Source: a virus
Direction: 5' to 3' (one strand)
Virus record (IMG/VR): IMGVR_UViG_3300022925_000101
Span: 1 to 31,907 of that record
DNA length: 31,907 nucleotides
Part shown: one piece after another, positions 4,415 to 27,956 of the stretch
How the letters are laid out: each line of letters opens with the position of its first letter
Position numbering within the stretch: the stretch's first letter is position 1
Position numbers and translations under genes: made by a program
Notes under the pieces: model-generated
Database searches by the model: none
What the model was told of the DNA's origin: nothing
What the model saw: only the letters and a program-made list of their open reading frames with translations

Positions 4415-4440
4415 AAAAAGGGGCTTCGGCCCCTTTTTTT
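4415..4440. terminator. Bidirectional intrinsic terminator between convergent units
   Basis: GGGGC (4420-4424) and GCCCC (4429-4433) form a stem closed by a TTCG tetraloop. Five A residues lie before it and seven T residues after it, so on either strand the stem is followed by a U-tract. It lies two bases past the nrdB stop, and on the other strand the stop codon of the last tail-cassette gene (4439-4441) is inside the T-tract. One element therefore ends both transcription units. Confidence 0.93.
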
Positions 4441-10718: not shown

Positions 10719-12398
10719 CTATACTGTACCAGCATCATAATTTCTATCCCCTATTTGGAATACAGTAAAGCTGGTGTTTTCTGTAGAACTTAAAGTTACG
10801 GGTTCTCTAAAGAAAATGAAGTCAAGATTATGTGCGACTAATATAGTGCCAAAATCTCCTCCACTTGAATCGTAACTTTTAGTTACTTGAAACTTTGTTG
10901 CATCGTTTGGGTCAGTAGTAACAGTATCAAATGTACTTCCTGTAGGCACTGAATTTATTAACTCTGCCCCCGCTAATTCTGTGTATGTAGTAGGATCATT
11001 AATATCTGTATAAGTATATATTCTTAGTTCTGTGTCTGGCTCTATATTACTAATAGTTAGAGTTTTAGACGCTACGAATACAGTGTTTGATCCTGCCCCA
11101 ACATTTATAACTGTAGGGGTATTACTAGTTCCTACTAAATTAATAGTTACTTCTTCTCCCGAAGTATTTCTTAATGCGGCACTCGCTGTTCCGTCTGCCC
11201 CAAAGCTAGTGTTATCAAACTCTAAACTGTTAAAGTTAAGAGTTGGTGGAGAGCCTGCTGCAGCTGCCATTGCTGCTGTTATTTCAAAAGCATGACCACT
11301 TCCAACCTGAGTTATTACGGTATCATGTATTCCTGTAGCCCCAAAAGTGCCATCAGTTATTGCCGCTACTCCAGAAGCACTTCTTGGTCGGTATACTGTA
11401 TTCTTAATCTCCGCTCCGGCCTGGGTACAGGATACTACATCAAACGTTCCTCCGTCTATAGTAACGGAAGAAGTTAAGGTTGCTTGACGTACCCCTAGAA
11501 TCGCACAGGAGGTTACTGATGCCGTTCCTGCTGTGCCGGTAAAAATCAGCTCTGGACGGTTTATAGCTGTAGCAACATTAGAAGATTGAAAGTTACAGTT
11601 ATCAAGAGAGAAAGTGGTAGAAGCATTTCCTAAATTAACTCTCCAACCTAACCAGTCAGATCTAATTGCAGCTTGATCTACGTGTACAAAAGTTTTATCA
11701 GTTTCTGAAAAAGTGGTTGCAACTGCCGTTCCCGCAGTTGCTCCTTCACCCACTATTAGTTTAGAGAAAAATAAATCAACCCCTCCCTGATTGAGAAGCA
11801 ACCCATTATAGCCTGTTGTTTTATTGCTTTCAGAAGCTCTAATAAAAGCTATAGTATTATCTGCGGTTCCGTTGATAAAAAAAGGAATTACTTGAGAGCC
11901 CTGAAAATATCTAGCATTATCTACAAAAGAATTGGGCTTATTACCAGAACCCGTATCATTGTTTGAAATTCTAAATGCCAACGCTTGTACAGCAGAGAGA
12001 GTCAGTGTTCCTGAAAATTGATCGGCATCACACCAAATAGGTGTATAGCCTCCGTTTGCAGGATAAAAATCCCCTAAATTTACTATACCCTCTGTAGTTC
12101 CGTCATATATTAAAAAGTCATAGCTGGTTAGAGAAGCGCCTACGGAAGTGTTAAACCAGTATAACGCTGCACTTCCAGAAGAAGACAAATCTACAGTATT
12201 TCCGTTTACTTCACCGATACCCTTAATTAGGTTAGTTTCCGCGTCTATACGAAACTCGCCACAACCAACTCCTTGAAGTTCAAAGCCGTCAGCAGCATTA
12301 ATTGCAATAGCAGCATTACCCCCGCCAGGAGAATACTCGTTAGCTCCAATAGTTGAGTCGAGGTCATTGAAAATCGTTGTGCGAGTTCCGAAAGCCAT
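10719..12398 (-). CDS. Beta-helix-like tail appendage protein
   Basis: This 559-aa protein is rich in Ser, Thr, Gly, Asn and Ala with short alternating strands. From about residue 150 to 380, spaced repeats such as ITDGTFGATGIHDTVI and SSVTIDGGTFDVVSC look like rungs of a right-handed parallel beta-helix, as in tailspikes and pectate-lyase-like proteins. The C-terminal section has LTISNIEPDTELRIYTYTD (about 440-460), resembling an Ig-like domain seen at the ends of phage structural proteins. No catalytic motif is evident, so depolymerase activity cannot be claimed. The start shares one base with the upstream adaptor-like gene (TAATG), which suggests the two products act together, with the small protein possibly mounting this one on the tail. 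Confidence 0.65.
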   Translation of the reverse strand: MAFGTRTTIFNDLDSTIGANEYSPGGGNAAIAINAADGFELQGVGCGEFRIDAETNLIKGIGEVNGNTVDLSSSGSAALYWFNTSVGASLTSYDFLIYDGTTEGIVNLGDFYPANGGYTPIWCDADQFSGTLTLSAVQALAFRISNNDTGSGNKPNSFVDNARYFQGSQVIPFFINGTADNTIAFIRASESNKTTGYNGLLLNQGGVDLFFSKLIVGEGATAGTAVATTFSETDKTFVHVDQAAIRSDWLGWRVNLGNASTTFSLDNCNFQSSNVATAINRPELIFTGTAGTASVTSCAILGVRQATLTSSVTIDGGTFDVVSCTQAGAEIKNTVYRPRSASGVAAITDGTFGATGIHDTVITQVGSGHAFEITAAMAAAAGSPPTLNFNSLEFDNTSFGADGTASAALRNTSGEEVTINLVGTSNTPTVINVGAGSNTVFVASKTLTISNIEPDTELRIYTYTDINDPTTYTELAGAELINSVPTGSTFDTVTTDPNDATKFQVTKSYDSSGGDFGTILVAHNLDFIFFREPVTLSSTENTSFTVFQIGDRNYDAGTV

Positions 12399-12766
12399 TA
12401 TGCAATACTTCTAGTAACATCCTTCACTACTTTCACTTTTCCAATGAGTAGAGTTTGAACTTTACCTGTGCCATCTACTTGCTGTACATCATAATTATAG
12501 GTTGCAGGAGTAACAGTATCTGTCAATGCTTTAGCAGCTGTAATATATACTATTCCTTGACTTGCTTCAGTAGGGCTTCCAGAAACACTAGGAGTTATAG
12601 ATACCTGTAATGCTCCTGGGTCTGCGTCATCAATATTATCTTTCAAGGTAAACCAGTATGTATAACCAGTAATGTTTAAAGGCGAACCAGAGTCGCTTAG
12701 AGTGAGTTTTATAGTCCAATCATCTCCTCTGACGAGGGGAGAAAGATCTCTAGCCTGATACGACAT
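12398..12766 (-). CDS. BppU-N-like small tail protein, first gene of promoter-driven unit
   Basis: This 122-aa protein matches the pattern of small phage tail proteins related to the N-terminal domain of baseplate protein BppU. The visible pattern is a RGDDWTIKLTL strand, then PLNITGYTYWFTLK, a GIVYITAAKA strand and a YNYDVQQVDG...LLIGKVKVV end, giving an all-beta sandwich. In characterised phages such domains anchor receptor-binding parts to the tail. It is translationally coupled to the beta-helix-like gene by a TAATG overlap, which fits an adaptor-plus-fibre pair. It is the first gene downstream of the consensus promoter at 12824-12869, with a leader of about 50 bases. The ribosome site is weak (GGAAA about 10 bases away), which is odd beside such a strong promoter. 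Confidence 0.7.
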   Translation of the reverse strand: MSYQARDLSPLVRGDDWTIKLTLSDSGSPLNITGYTYWFTLKDNIDDADPGALQVSITPSVSGSPTEASQGIVYITAAKALTDTVTPATYNYDVQQVDGTGKVQTLLIGKVKVVKDVTRSIA

Positions 12767-12823
12767 AGTAATTGATTTCCGGAAAATACTTGTTTCTAGG
12801 TACGAAACTGTAAGAATATGAAA
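12767..12823 (-). promoter_or_regulatory. Leader between the promoter and the BppU-like gene
   Basis: This untranslated stretch should be the mRNA leader of the 8.4-kb unit. It contains a perfect 10-base palindrome, TTTCCGGAAA (12776-12785), about ten bases before the ATG. The palindrome includes the only purine-rich match to a ribosome site. It could be an operator or simply the ribosome site in a palindromic context. Confidence 0.4.
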
Positions 12824-12869
12824 ATTATATCAACTGAATAGAAGAATGTCAAGATTTATTTTTTTGTTT
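12824..12869 (-). promoter_or_regulatory. Full-consensus sigma70-type promoter
   Basis: On the minus strand the -35 box TTGACA (12847-12852) is followed by exactly 17 bases and then TATAAT (12824-12829). A TG one base before the -10 makes it an extended -10. An A-rich run (AAAAAAATAAA, about 12856-12867) lies just upstream of the -35, like an UP element. It is in the only intergenic gap of over 100 bases in the tail cassette and points at the BppU-like gene. It should be read by unmodified host RNA polymerase. Confidence 0.92.
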
Positions 12870-12895
12870 CCTGTTATGTATTGAGATAATAGTAT

Positions 12896-13540
12896 CTAAA
12901 AACTGGGCACACCTTTAGTAGGTACGGGTACGGTTGTATCTCCTACTATAAAAGAAATACCTGACCATTCTTCTTCCGAAAACGAGTTCGCATAGTCTGT
13001 TAAATTTAGTTGCTTTTGTACTACAGAATTATATGGGACATTAGAGAGAGAAGTATCGGTGGTCTCATAGTTAGTTACAGCTCTTGCGTCTAATTTTCCA
13101 GCAACCTGAGGTGCAGTATCTGTTACACCCACCTGAGCGTAATCACATTGTAAAAACTGATTTGCAAACCATGAAATTAGCATGAACATCTGAGTAAAAT
13201 ATCCTTTACCTCTTTCTGAACTTTTTATTACAGCTGTTACTTTTGTTAAATAAGTAGTTGTAGTACTTCCATTGTTACTAAAAGTAAAAGTTATAGCGCC
13301 TACTTTTTCATGAGAAGAGTTGCAAAGAAAGAACACTCCCGCGTCAATTCTGGGGTGAGGACTTATAACTGCTCTACTATCATTTAAAGTAGTTGCAGAA
13401 ACACTGCACATATCTAAACATCCGCGAAGAGTTTTCGGAATTACATAGTCTCTAAAAATTGAATTTAAGGTTTCTGCATCCGAAAAAGTTTCTTGTACTT
13501 CTGTAAGGTAACACCCGCTACTTGAATTTAATATTTTCAT
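12896..13540 (-). CDS. GNAT-like acyltransferase domain protein in fibre region
   Basis: This 214-aa protein appears to contain a GCN5-related N-acetyltransferase core. A strand (VGAITFTFSN, 80-89) is followed by the motif A strand VTAVIKSSERGKGYF (101-115), whose R110-G-K-G113 matches the acetyl-CoA pyrophosphate-binding loop. A long helix (QMFMLISWFANQFL) and a further strand (YAQVGVT) follow. The protein has five cysteines, including GCLDMC (40-45). It lies between a collagen-like fibre gene (TAATG overlap, with GGAGGAAA as ribosome site) and the promoter that starts the next unit. It might modify a fibre or host surface component, or it may be a degenerate structural use of the fold. The catalytic residues are not certain. 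Confidence 0.55.
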   Translation of the reverse strand: MKILNSSSGCYLTEVQETFSDAETLNSIFRDYVIPKTLRGCLDMCSVSATTLNDSRAVISPHPRIDAGVFFLCNSSHEKVGAITFTFSNNGSTTTTYLTKVTAVIKSSERGKGYFTQMFMLISWFANQFLQCDYAQVGVTDTAPQVAGKLDARAVTNYETTDTSLSNVPYNSVVQKQLNLTDYANSFSEEEWSGISFIVGDTTVPVPTKGVPSF

Positions 13541-21973: not shown

Positions 21974-23153
21974 CTGGAAATCCTCCGAACCGTAAATGGT
22001 TTGTTTTATTTAAGTTTGAATCAGGTATACCAGAACCTCCAGGCAATTCTAATGCATTATATCTAAGAGTACAAGAGTTTATTTTCTTTCCGCAAACATC
22101 TCCCAAAGTCCAGTATCTTCCTTCTTTTAAATTGTCGTTAACAGAAGTATCTACAGTAATTAATTTCACCTTAAATAGATCTCCTAAAAGTTTTTTTACA
22201 TAGTCATTGTACCCAGACTGTTTATATCCGTAATATGTAGTGCCCGCACTATAAATACTGTATAGTCTTATTCTTCTCCAATTACCTCTGTCGCTATCTG
22301 AAGGAGTTCCTGTACCGGTCGTAATTGCTTGCCAATAATTTGTAACAGTTACCGGAGAAGTAGAAAGTCCGTCTGCACTGTATCTGTCAGCGGTGCTCGT
22401 AGTGGTATATAATGAATTTTTAGTAGAGGAGCCAGACCAAGCAGAAAATTGTCCAAGATTGGTGTCTGATATTACATACTCATCTAAATCATTTATAAAT
22501 AAAACTGAAGAACTACTTGGAGATTGAAATGTAGAGTCCCAATCACAACCACCTAGCCTTGCTTGAGGGGGGACTAGTTGTTGTGCTCCTTTATATTTGA
22601 AAGGACAAGCTCCTCCTATTACAACTCTTCTGGGAATCGTAACTCCTTGCAAGTCAAAAGGTGCTGCTAGTTCAAAGGTTATATTTACTATATTTTTTTC
22701 TTTAACTCTATCTATATAATAAACTGTTCTAGGATATTCTACGGGTGCTAAACCTGGCCCAACATCTCCTGAACCTCCTACAAGGTATTTTTCTAGGGTG
22801 GTTCTCTTAGTAAGTTTAGTTCCGATTAATTCTTCAGGCTTTAAACCCCCTATAGAGTCTGACAAAACGGAGCCTATATTAGCTATAGTCAGGGTAGGTC
22901 TAGAAATTGCCCCGTCATTGCTCGTATCAAAGCCCTCTGCTTCAATAGGAATACCTACGTACTCTATTTCAGCTCCCACCACAAATTCTTGCCTCCACTC
23001 TCTGAATCTAATATTTTCTAAAGTAGTACCATCAAATTCCGCTCTTCCGGAATAAAAATAGGCGAAAGATCCTGTAGAATATTCTAACTCATATAAAGTT
23101 ATTAGAGAAGAGCCAGGATCTTGAAGTTGTGTTGTTCTTATTATATCTGTCAT
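21954..23153 (-). CDS. L: Minor tail protein, lambda gpL family (Fe-S cysteines)
   Basis: This 399-aa protein is the L-type minor tail protein, which forms part of the tail hub between the M ring and I/J. The N-terminus (TTQLQDPGSSLITLYELEY) and the early CDWD-type region fit the family. Four cysteines at C183, C203, C354 and C361 are positioned like the ligands of the [4Fe-4S] cluster described for lambda gpL, with the last pair seven residues apart. Lambda gpL is about 232 aa. The extra length lies mostly in an insertion between C203 and C354 that contains a YWQAITTGTGTPSD block resembling a small carbohydrate-binding module. The start overlaps the M-B stop as ATGA, so M and L are coupled. 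Confidence 0.92.
   Translation of the reverse strand: MTDIIRTTQLQDPGSSLITLYELEYSTGSFAYFYSGRAEFDGTTLENIRFREWRQEFVVGAEIEYVGIPIEAEGFDTSNDGAISRPTLTIANIGSVLSDSIGGLKPEELIGTKLTKRTTLEKYLVGGSGDVGPGLAPVEYPRTVYYIDRVKEKNIVNITFELAAPFDLQGVTIPRRVVIGGACPFKYKGAQQLVPPQARLGGCDWDSTFQSPSSSSVLFINDLDEYVISDTNLGQFSAWSGSSTKNSLYTTTSTADRYSADGLSTSPVTVTNYWQAITTGTGTPSDSDRGNWRRIRLYSIYSAGTTYYGYKQSGYNDYVKKLLGDLFKVKLITVDTSVNDNLKEGRYWTLGDVCGKKINSCTLRYNALELPGGSGIPDSNLNKTNHLRFGGFPGVQQRR
21981..21986 (-). promoter_or_regulatory. Consensus Shine-Dalgarno deciding the GTG start of K
   Basis: GGAGGA on the minus strand lies seven bases before the GTG at 21973, inside the last codons of L. It is a near-perfect ribosome site, supports the GTG as the true start, and implies strong independent initiation of the peptidase. 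Confidence 0.85.
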
Positions 23154-23549: not shown

Positions 23550-26500
23550 TTACCTATATGCGCAAGGAATAGAGACAGTGATTGTCTTGCCGGCGTCAGC
23601 TGCGGCACACCTAATCAACCCTTGTCTTGGGAAAACTGAAACTTCTCCGGCAGAGAGTGTTCCATTGTCTTCAATCCCCGTTACTGTAGCCTCTACCCCA
23701 TCTATCTTTATACTAAAAGCTTCTCTAAACGCCATTTGCATATACAAGAAATTGGAATTAAAAGATGCATTTCCAGACCCGCTAGTACCTACTCTTACCC
23801 AGTAATCGTTAGCTGCCGACTTCTTAAAAATGTTGGCCGTACCTAATCCATACTCAGTGTGCCCATTAGCGCCTTGTTGGGTTTTAGAAATTACCTCATG
23901 TAGCTGTGCAGGAATTAGACTTTCACTACTTGAAGCGGCAGAGGTATATATTAATTGGTCCCTCAGGTAGTAAGTTATAGTGGTGCCAACTCTTTTTATT
24001 GTGAAAGGACATCTTCTAGCGTTCACAGGATCTGACATACCATATCTTGCGTCGTTCGCGATCGCGTTCCAGCTCGAGTTCCAAGTGTCCACAGTATTTA
24101 AAGCATCTACTCGACTGCTAAGCGACGTATCCCATGTATGAGTATTAAAAATACTATACCAAAACTCTGTATCTGTATGAGTGTAAACTACGCTTCCTGA
24201 CTCAATGACTTCAATTATTAAGTTGTACACAGTTGGACCAGCTCCAGTAGTATCCGTTACTGGGAGGTAAAAATCGGATTTATTTACCTCATTTTGCCAG
24301 TTGTAATTTGGAGCTGCTGATGTACTATTAAGACTAGCAGAAGTGACTGCAGGGCCGCCAAATCTAATCCTAAACCCGTAATCAAAATCATTTATGCTAT
24401 ATGGGTTACTTATTGGAGAAGTGTCGCTGAAAGAAGCTGAATTAACTACTCCCACATAAGCGTTCGCCTCTAGCAAACCACTTACGTCTGTATAAACTAT
24501 AATATCGTTAACTTGTGTAGTACTTCTCCAATCAAAGTTAAGATGTTTTAATAGCTGAAACTCTACTTCAAAGTCTCCAGCAGCAGCTAAAGTTGTTTTC
24601 TTTCTAATTGCATTTCTGAATTGTCCCGGTGTGCTTTCACTACCATTCCAAGTACTATTAGTGGCCCCATTAGTGGTCCCGCCATACCACAGACTACAAG
24701 GATAGAATTTAGTAGAATACCTGTGCCCCCTTCTAAGTCTGGTGAATGTAGTTTGATTGTTAACAACTTGTGCACCCCAAATATTATAGCTGTCTTCCTC
24801 ATAATATTCTGGATTTGAAGTATTAAGTATTGGTGAAGGGTCTGTAGTACCCTCGTATTCTCCAACAGAGTCATAATAAATCTCTGGAATTAAATCCGAG
24901 GGGGTATTCAGAGCAATAGTGGCTCCCGTAACTTCCGTAACTCTTTCACTGTCCCAGTATGATATATCAGGTGCATGTAAGTTACAATTAGTTCCTGCAT
25001 CATTTAACAATCCTCTATACACGTGAAAAGAAATAGCTTCTCCCGACTCAAAGCTTTGAGTAGCTCCCGCATCATCAAAAGAAATAGTCGCGCCACCAAT
25101 GAGAGCATCTGTACTAGAATGTGTCGTTTTGACGGTTAAAGCATCATTATCGTCCTGCCTTAATATCCAAGAAGATCCGTTCCATTTGTATCTTTGCCAA
25201 ATGTCTCCGACTAATTTCTTCGCAGGATCTATACCCAAGAAAGTTGTTCCGTCACTCATTGCTCCTGCGAAAGAGTTCATAACAACCAAACCTCTACCAA
25301 TATATCTATTATAATAAGTGCCGCTGCTTATGCCCCCGTCTGTACCAGTTCCAAAAGCTCCTAACAGTGTGACTCTACTTCCATTGAACTCAAACATATG
25401 GATATTATTATTTCGTCCGTTTGATTGAACTAAGCACTCATGTCCATCGTCATTTCGATCTAGAATATGTGTGTACATCCAGGCACTATTTACGTTGTAT
25501 GTGTCTGAAAAATTACCGGTGCCGATTCCGATACCATTACCTTCGTATTGATAAGCATACTGCGAAGAATCATTTACCCATTTCTCATCAAAAGTATCTC
25601 CAACAGTGAACTCAGAATAATTAGCTGGAGAACCTCCAATCTGCTGCTCCCAAAATATCTCTAACGGTGCTGTATTGTAAGTACCTGAAAGACCAAGACG
25701 GTCTAAATAAAACTGACTAAAATACCAGTTGGACTCTCTTGGAGTACAGCCAATAAGGTGTTGAGAGTATCTACGTACGGGAGCATAGTTTCCATCAGCA
25801 AGCCATTGTGCTCTTAGCCCGTTGTTTCCGCTAGTTCGAAAAAACCATCCAATATCCTTAGTTGCATTGCTCGAGCCCCCATAAAGTATAGGAAGATCTC
25901 CGGAAGTAGTTAGTACGTTTGTAGCTCCTGTAGTGGGAGACCACCACTCTCCTTTATATTTTCCATAGTAAACATTGCCGGCTAATTGGCCTGGAGAATT
26001 ACTATTAGGACTTGGATCAAATAAATACAGAAGTCTGTTTGCATTATTTCTATCTGCTTTTATAACATGAGCAGCGCTCCAAGTTGCTTCAATTGTAGCG
26101 TTTACAAAAGTTGTTCCTCCGGTAGAGGTACTATCATAACCTGTCCAAGTTGCTCCATTATCGGTAGACTTAACTAAAGCGCCTTCCATAAATGCCCAAA
26201 TAACTCTGTAACTGTTTGCGCCTGATTGAGTGCCAACAGTTATAGCATAGCACTTATTCTGGACTGTGGCAGAAACATCAGTAACGGTAGATAAATCATA
26301 GCTTGTAAAAGTCGGTGTGCCAAAAGGATCTTGAATACTGTATATACCTGTTCCATAGCAAGAGAGCCAAAGAGTATCACTTAATTCATCATATTCTACT
26401 TGTCCTAGTGCTGTCGGAGCAAAAGTGGGGTCATAAAAACTTCCGTAAGCAATAGAATAAGGTTTGTCTGCTTTAATGAAAGTAATGGTGGTATTGTCAT

Positions 26501-27956
26501 AAGTAAAGAGCTTAGAGGGATCGCTAAAATCCATACTATGAAGTTGAGAGTTTTGAACTGCGTTTCCGTTTTCTGCATACTCACCCCTGATCCTCTCCGG
26601 ATTGGGCTCCGTCATAGTAGAAAATTCCGTAGTGACGGTACTGACATGACTGGTCAAAGTACCTGTAATAATTGGCTCAAATCTTGGAACTAAAGTATTA
26701 TTTGTCCAACCCAGAGTGTATCTTTTCATAAAAGAATATTCTGGAACTCCAACATTTCCTGTAGTTCCGGAAATATCTACTTTCCACTGTTCTGGAAAAG
26801 TTGTATTATAAGAAGAAGTATCTACAACTATTGTTCCATCTGTATTTGGTACTTCTCCGGCGTCAAAAAAGGGAACAGTTGCGTTGCTAATTTTTCCAAA
26901 ATATTGTTGAGTTTTATCTGCCCCAGGGGGGAGAATCGGACCCCAATTATGAATAGGATAACTTGAGCCTGAAGCTTCCTCGGTTGTAGAATTGGTTCTG
27001 TGCCAAGAGCCTCGAAAAGCTCCTACATCGGTATCAGTACTCTTCATCTTATAACTACCATGCCAAATCCCGTCCCAGCCTACCCAATTTACGTCTGATT
27101 CATTTTTCCAAGCAGAGATGCTACCGTTCAAATAAACTGCTTCCGAATTAGGTTTTCCAGCAACATACAATGAATTTGGAATTCTTCCCCTGTCGGGGTT
27201 ACCCCAAAAAGAGTATCTTCCCTTACCCCCTAGAATTTCATAGTATAGCCCTGTAGTAAAATCGTTATACGCGCCTACCCTTCCAGAAAATGTAGTTGAA
27301 TTTCTTCCCACTAAATTATGTGCAAAATGTATATAATTATTTAAAGATTTTGTAGAGCTTGTAGAATATGGAAACTGTAATCTGTATAGAATGACAACAA
27401 CTTCTGTAGTATCCTGAGTTACGGCAGATGCGAAAGAAACACCAGTTAAAGGAACCTGCTGTCCTGTCCAAAATTGGGAACCGGACTGGGAACCGGAAAC
27501 GCCGTAGGCATTTAAACCAAAAGTATGAAGAGTTCGGGTGCCTGTAGTTGGGGGCAGAAGTTGCTGGGTCATTTTAAGTTCAGTAGTTGCTGTTGCTCCC
27601 CCATCTCCCTGTAGAATCATGTGCGGAGTTCCAGCTATGCTCTGTGGCAGATACATAGTTCCTGGCAAACTATTGCAGGAAGGAGAAAAGTTTGCAACAT
27701 AAGTATCTGTAGCATATAAATAAAATAGCCCTCCTCTGTCTCGGTCTTGCGAACTGTACATTAAATCTTCTGGGTCGTCGTTTAGCTCGTCATTCGCAGG
27801 ATTAGTTGCCGACTGACCTGTGACGTAGGCTCCCGGCTGGTAGTTGGTAAAAAAAGAATCAAAAACTAAATTCTCTTTCCAGCCAGACTCAAAAGTAGTT
27901 TCGTCTGTATCTACTTTTTTCTTAATTATATTTACTAGTCCTTTTACATTATTCAT
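23550..27956 (-). CDS. Large beta-rich tail appendage protein (module B), propeller and lectin-like regions
   Basis: This 1468-aa protein looks like an exposed tail appendage, not a tape measure: it is rich in Gly, Ser, Thr, Asn, Tyr and Trp and lacks long helices. An Asp-box/BNR motif (KSTDNGATWTG, near 590) and repeated aromatic strands suggest a beta-propeller in the first half. The second half (from about 725) is a clear paralog of the protein encoded at 29666-31907. It shares GCTP/GCTK, PLEIFWEQQ, RYKWNGSSW, QDDND and STDALIGGATISFDDA. Next is a lectin-like region with CPFTIKRVGTTITYY and LIYTSAASSSESLIP. It ends with a conserved terminal domain (AAADAGKTI...PCAYR). It starts after a TAAAATG junction and is followed by M-B. 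A host-surface glycan-binding role is inferred. Confidence 0.7.
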   Translation of the reverse strand: MNNVKGLVNIIKKKVDTDETTFESGWKENLVFDSFFTNYQPGAYVTGQSATNPANDELNDDPEDLMYSSQDRDRGGLFYLYATDTYVANFSPSCNSLPGTMYLPQSIAGTPHMILQGDGGATATTELKMTQQLLPPTTGTRTLHTFGLNAYGVSGSQSGSQFWTGQQVPLTGVSFASAVTQDTTEVVVILYRLQFPYSTSSTKSLNNYIHFAHNLVGRNSTTFSGRVGAYNDFTTGLYYEILGGKGRYSFWGNPDRGRIPNSLYVAGKPNSEAVYLNGSISAWKNESDVNWVGWDGIWHGSYKMKSTDTDVGAFRGSWHRTNSTTEEASGSSYPIHNWGPILPPGADKTQQYFGKISNATVPFFDAGEVPNTDGTIVVDTSSYNTTFPEQWKVDISGTTGNVGVPEYSFMKRYTLGWTNNTLVPRFEPIITGTLTSHVSTVTTEFSTMTEPNPERIRGEYAENGNAVQNSQLHSMDFSDPSKLFTYDNTTITFIKADKPYSIAYGSFYDPTFAPTALGQVEYDELSDTLWLSCYGTGIYSIQDPFGTPTFTSYDLSTVTDVSATVQNKCYAITVGTQSGANSYRVIWAFMEGALVKSTDNGATWTGYDSTSTGGTTFVNATIEATWSAAHVIKADRNNANRLLYLFDPSPNSNSPGQLAGNVYYGKYKGEWWSPTTGATNVLTTSGDLPILYGGSSNATKDIGWFFRTSGNNGLRAQWLADGNYAPVRRYSQHLIGCTPRESNWYFSQFYLDRLGLSGTYNTAPLEIFWEQQIGGSPANYSEFTVGDTFDEKWVNDSSQYAYQYEGNGIGIGTGNFSDTYNVNSAWMYTHILDRNDDGHECLVQSNGRNNNIHMFEFNGSRVTLLGAFGTGTDGGISSGTYYNRYIGRGLVVMNSFAGAMSDGTTFLGIDPAKKLVGDIWQRYKWNGSSWILRQDDNDALTVKTTHSSTDALIGGATISFDDAGATQSFESGEAISFHVYRGLLNDAGTNCNLHAPDISYWDSERVTEVTGATIALNTPSDLIPEIYYDSVGEYEGTTDPSPILNTSNPEYYEEDSYNIWGAQVVNNQTTFTRLRRGHRYSTKFYPCSLWYGGTTNGATNSTWNGSESTPGQFRNAIRKKTTLAAAGDFEVEFQLLKHLNFDWRSTTQVNDIIVYTDVSGLLEANAYVGVVNSASFSDTSPISNPYSINDFDYGFRIRFGGPAVTSASLNSTSAAPNYNWQNEVNKSDFYLPVTDTTGAGPTVYNLIIEVIESGSVVYTHTDTEFWYSIFNTHTWDTSLSSRVDALNTVDTWNSSWNAIANDARYGMSDPVNARRCPFTIKRVGTTITYYLRDQLIYTSAASSSESLIPAQLHEVISKTQQGANGHTEYGLGTANIFKKSAANDYWVRVGTSGSGNASFNSNFLYMQMAFREAFSIKIDGVEATVTGIEDNGTLSAGEVSVFPRQGLIRCAAADAGKTITVSIPCAYR

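Follow-up and report, generated by a model that had tools for sequence, protein, structure and literature searches.

Why should a block of phage tail genes be headed by a promoter in which every recognition element of the host RNA polymerase is present at once? The question is raised by a stretch of viral DNA of 31,907 nucleotides (nt) (IMG/VR record IMGVR_UViG_3300022925_000101, positions 1 to 31,907; hereafter the window), in which a predicted sigma70/sigmaA-type promoter on the minus strand stands before a small gene, here called K, at the head of seven tail-appendage genes, here called the cassette. The virus is an uncultured aquatic phage for which no close cultured phage was found; its ribonucleotide reductase (RNR) is closest to those of Pelagibacter phages, which is weak evidence of its host. 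Judging from sequence, we consider it very probable that the K promoter is genuine, is recognised by the primary-sigma holoenzyme of the host and sets the appendage cassette apart as a separate transcription unit (12817 to ~4420). This judgement covers the explanation as a whole: the sequence itself shows the elements, the selection on them, the link with K and with a distant K family, the boundary position and the relocation, and we infer the activity of the promoter, its high strength and any advantage in stoichiometry or timing.

An earlier note on this DNA had described a full-consensus promoter with every element, placed in the only sizeable gap of the tail genes, and both descriptions were borne out. 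TTGACA and TATAAT are separated by exactly 17 nt, with a TGn extended -10 and an A-rich UP-like tract, and the site is the only one in the window to match all 12 hexamer bases, the runner-up sites matching 10/12. It thus falls within the sigma70/sigmaA type (TTGACA and TATAAT, 17 +/- 1 nt apart) and is conserved; the full -35 element places it outside the T4 late type, defined by NATAAATA without a -35. The gap (12767-12895) measures 129 nt, and all other minus-strand gaps are at most 37 nt. A chance AT-rich match inside the gap might be suspected in a window with a guanine plus cytosine (GC) content of only 39%. However, TTGACA-17-TATAAT sites are expected on both strands only 0.007 (second-order Markov simulation) to 0.016 (base composition) times per window, or ~0.001 times with TGn added, and the site is conserved in 40/40 relatives. 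This conservation refutes a chance origin, the probability of which we regard as negligible.

The relatives came from a search with gene K that returned 42 IMG/VR loci, of which 40 are orthologues heading the cassette. The other two (L042 and L043) were excluded; they first appeared to be K loci lacking a promoter, a reading rejected on gene order, which shows that each is a second K paralogue lying at the opposite end of a cassette. The conservation check that the earlier note had proposed gave a clear answer, as the promoter was present in 40/40 orthologues, 78-127 nt 5' of the start codon, with 38 perfect sites and two carrying TTGACT. Across the 23 distinct cores, information content reached 1.96 and 2.0 bits per base in the two hexamers and 1.6 in the A-tract, compared with 0.43 bits in the first 14 spacer bases and 0.33 bits in the flank further upstream. 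The spacers form eight unrelated clusters, yet their length is constant at 17. Diverged spacers between fixed hexamers at a fixed distance show that the K promoter is under selection for promoter function. The same pattern bears on the idea that the block is conserved as a recombination handle through which cassettes are exchanged, with promoter activity secondary. The block does lie where the genes on its upstream side begin to differ between relatives, but conservation tracks the promoter elements exactly (hexamers ~2 bits, spacer 0.43 bits, fixed 17 nt) instead of following a contiguous homology tract, and we give this idea very little credence.

The association extends to a distant K family (K'). 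When the collection was scanned with the promoter pattern only, 26 of the 125 matches lay directly before a K-like gene, and most of these genes were distant from K. Aligned K' proteins, which are ~25% identical to K, were then used to fetch the best 80 of at least 588 candidate loci, with no condition on the promoter; these 80 loci are mutually related, and 47 distinct cores remain. A consensus promoter was found 48-55 nt upstream in 79/80 of them: 72 have 11-12/12 matches at 17-nt spacing (57 perfect) and seven have perfect hexamers at 18 nt, against a background of 32/4000 random windows of the same loci scoring at least 11. Together, the K and K' loci comprise more than 100 relatives with the same promoter type joined to the gene block. 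Among the loci without a K gene, we also noted a recurrent arrangement (L061, L063, L081, L084, L088, L090, L134, L136, L148) in which a hairpin, GTAAGTG..CACTTAC, comes immediately after a TGn consensus promoter and precedes TTTTTGGCG; in marine phages this may represent an attenuator or a short RNA.

Predicted features of the K promoter and of the cassette that it heads (window coordinates)
Feature	Position	Strand	Remarks
A-tract AAAAAAATAAATC, proximal UP-element-like	12865-12853	minus	1.6 bits per base over 23 distinct cores
-35 element TTGACA	12852-12847	minus	identical in 38/40 relatives, TTGACT in the other 2; 1.96 bits per base
Spacer, 17 nt, TTCTTCTATTCAGTTGA	12846-12830	minus	ends in TGn
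Extended -10, TGA (= TGn)	12832-12830	minus	in 21/23 distinct K-promoter cores
-10 element TATAAT	12829-12824	minus	17-nt spacing to -35; invariant across K orthologues
Predicted 5' leader, +1 ~A12817	12767..12817	minus	start placed by distance from -10
K, first gene of unit, 122 amino acids (aa)	12398..12766	minus	stand-alone BppU-N-like / Ig-like beta-sandwich (phrog_1084)
Cassette gene 2, 559 aa	10719..12398	minus	no function assigned; adjoins K in many relatives
Cassette gene 3, 660 aa	8699..10681	minus	weak tail-protein match
Cassette gene 4, 194 aa	8090..8674	minus	
Cassette gene 5, 929 aa	5298..8087	minus	virion structural protein (phrog_1645)
Cassette gene 6, 200 aa	4696..5298	minus	
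Cassette gene 7, 86 aa	4439..4699	minus	
Bidirectional intrinsic terminator	4415..4440	both	between cassette end and convergent nrdB

What the promoter would transcribe is well delimited. The earlier note had proposed an 8.4-kb unit of seven genes, and seven open reading frames were indeed counted between the promoter and a real terminator, GGGGC-UUCG-GCCCC with T-runs on both strands (folding z -3.3 and -4.4). K is predicted to fold as a beta-sandwich (predicted local distance difference test, pLDDT, 86), and its nearest predicted viral structures include an annotated BppU N-terminal-domain protein of phiM12 (template-modelling score TMt 0.74) as well as the N-terminal portions of minor tail proteins; the PF10651 (BppU_N) profile gave weak matches in 4/17 K members, with a best E of 0.0043. 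The 929-aa protein resembles cyanomyovirus virion proteins over ~230 aa, and the tail genes upstream of the cassette match PHROG minor tail, tail assembly and J families. From these similarities, the most plausible reading of the cassette is a docking domain together with tail appendages. Some cassettes carry a second, diverged K copy (~40-46% identical) further downstream (L042, L043, L034, L037, L013, L014), which in L042 and L043 has no promoter of its own. Just upstream of the promoter, gene 12896-13540, present in few of the relatives, resembles a GNAT-type acetyltransferase on visual inspection, with no PHROG or Pfam match.

The position of the promoter coincides with a boundary in gene content. 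Upstream of K, the neighbours fall into 16 clusters in 40 loci, compared with six in 37 downstream; for K', the figures are 18 clusters in 79 loci upstream and a single family in 79/79 downstream. In most records, the cassette lies between J and nrdB. In G013, however, it is found at 81-89 kb among opposite-strand genes, with the promoter retained, no same-strand late operon feeding it and another gene occupying the J-nrdB junction; the setting in G015 is similar. Conversely, L052, L104 and L067 have a K'-headed set of other genes next to nrdB, and the promoter is again present. The promoter thus travels with K, which argues that the cassette may be transcriptionally autonomous. We propose that host holoenzyme would bind all four elements and start a transcript ~50 nt upstream of K, and that transcription would run through the seven genes to the terminator at ~4420. 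Such autonomy would leave the cassette free to be exchanged or relocated without upstream transcription, and a promoter of its own would spare it from starvation as the distal part of an operon in which the preceding promoter is ~28 kb upstream. We infer that the advantage of the promoter is most simply this autonomy, for exchange and relocation, together with a sufficient supply of product so far along a very long operon.

Several points weigh against an autonomous unit. Same-strand tail genes also precede the cassette in most genomes, and read-through from them could express it. One of the 80 K' loci (L262) has no promoter, and because the K' query was aligned from loci that carry promoters, the set of K' relatives retrieved may be biased. 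Many loci are closely related, such that the counts are not independent (K falls into eight spacer clusters, and K' retains 47 distinct cores). Finally, all of the relatives are metagenomic, and the genomes are incomplete.

In the majority of K leaders, a stem can be placed. That of the window, a possible weak stem GUUUC/GAAAC at 12808-12792, is kept in 12/12 group-A leaders, and the L031 leader has one compensatory change (GUCC/GGAC vs GUUC/GAAC). We rejected this hairpin as a conserved RNA element: the leaders folded no better than shuffles (mean z -0.25), the group-A alignment was without double compensation, and K' leaders would be too short for the stem.

Consensus promoters are not confined to K in this phage group. 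The records hold many with 11-12/12 matches at 17-nt spacing (in G006, 23 vs 1 at other spacings), mostly before probable early genes and some before late genes. G023, a near strain of the window phage (98.4% identity over the 7.7 kb shared) that extends further upstream, has two further consensus host-type promoters: one ahead of the tail-assembly chaperone, at a distance of ~28 kb upstream from the K promoter, and one shortly before the portal region. The contrast that the earlier note drew between the cassette promoter and M-L-K-I-J or other late genes therefore does not hold; as judged from sequence, host-type promoters on late genes are the rule in this group. In G010 (22052-22085) and G012 (939-972), we observed two perfect consensus promoters on opposite strands, almost fully overlapping, between J-side genes, with each -35 inside the start region of the other.

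The K promoter might then be an ordinary early promoter of the group that by chance stands before structural genes, so that the cassette is expressed from the start of infection. Consistent with this, 17-nt consensus promoters with the same A-tract are the general type in these genomes, mostly before probable early genes, and no feature of the K element suggests a block. K promoters are, however, set apart as a class by TGn and by the bases after the -10. TGn was present in 21/23 K cores (7/8 spacer clusters) vs 4/75 other intergenic consensus promoters of the same records (Fisher p ~6e-7, counted by spacer cluster), and the -10 is followed by TATAATTT/TC in K promoters, whereas TATAATAT is common in the others. 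In addition, the distant K homologues of T4-like marine phages carry a T4 late-type site, which speaks for late use in those phages. We regard an ordinary early promoter as possible but doubtful; the cassette might be transcribed early, constitutively or late, and the K promoter is without visible dependence on a phage factor. TGn might keep the cassette transcribed throughout infection once -35 recognition is weakened by the phage or by late competition, with TGn-less consensus promoters turned down. We offer this as speculation and think it unlikely; if true, a promoter-class switch would be written only in TGn. Searches for phage RNA polymerase (PF00940) and AsiA (PF09010) gave no matches, but the controls were also unmatched, so neither can be taken as absent. 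Sigma factor domains were not found in 22 of the 23 records searched. The sole exception, G022, encodes a 235-aa sigma-factor-like protein with sigma70 regions 2 and 4 (26291-26776) and is a K-carrying record with few other consensus promoters.

Returning to a host-type promoter that makes the cassette its own unit, we compared the arrangement with known systems. T4 early promoters have been described as UP/-35/TGn/-10 or 'uber' promoters (PMC2988021). Like them, the K promoter fits the four-element consensus, with all host recognition elements at once, and it is likewise predicted to be intrinsically strong with host holoenzyme unaided by phage factors. T4 early promoters, however, serve early genes, whereas the K promoter heads a virion-type cassette, to which the TGn form is largely confined within these phages. 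In Kyanoviridae, K-like genes (HTVC008M, Melnitz, S-SSM7, P-HM1, MED4-213) lie directly behind a promoter site and next to tail-fibre or baseplate genes, with NATAAATA sites 26-43 nt upstream in 5/7 cases examined. That site needs phage late factors and lacks TTGACA and TATAAT, both of which the K promoter has. It would seem that K-type genes commonly stand first in a transcription unit of their own, a late one in T4-like marine phages. The cassette also resembles morons, which have their own promoter and terminator and occur in varying contexts, as in the relocation in G013. A typical moron, however, is one accessory gene that is expressed in the lysogen, whereas the cassette comprises seven structural-looking genes; no sign of lysogeny was seen in these phages, and a search of genome contigs found no K relative. 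A literature search of partial coverage found no description of the promoter-cassette arrangement.

A perfect consensus sigma70 promoter, ideal in UP, -35, TGn and -10, has been discussed (PMC2613000), and a review called it not biologically relevant. The K promoter has the same ideal elements but is a natural, repeatedly conserved case, and it would provide a clear test of what TGn contributes when the other elements are ideal. In a large group of uncultured aquatic phages, one particular virion gene family is accompanied by one particular host-type promoter of maximal form. Should the cassette indeed be transcribed from its own promoter, parts for host recognition could be exchanged without rewiring the late operon, which would help explain the mosaicism of tail modules.
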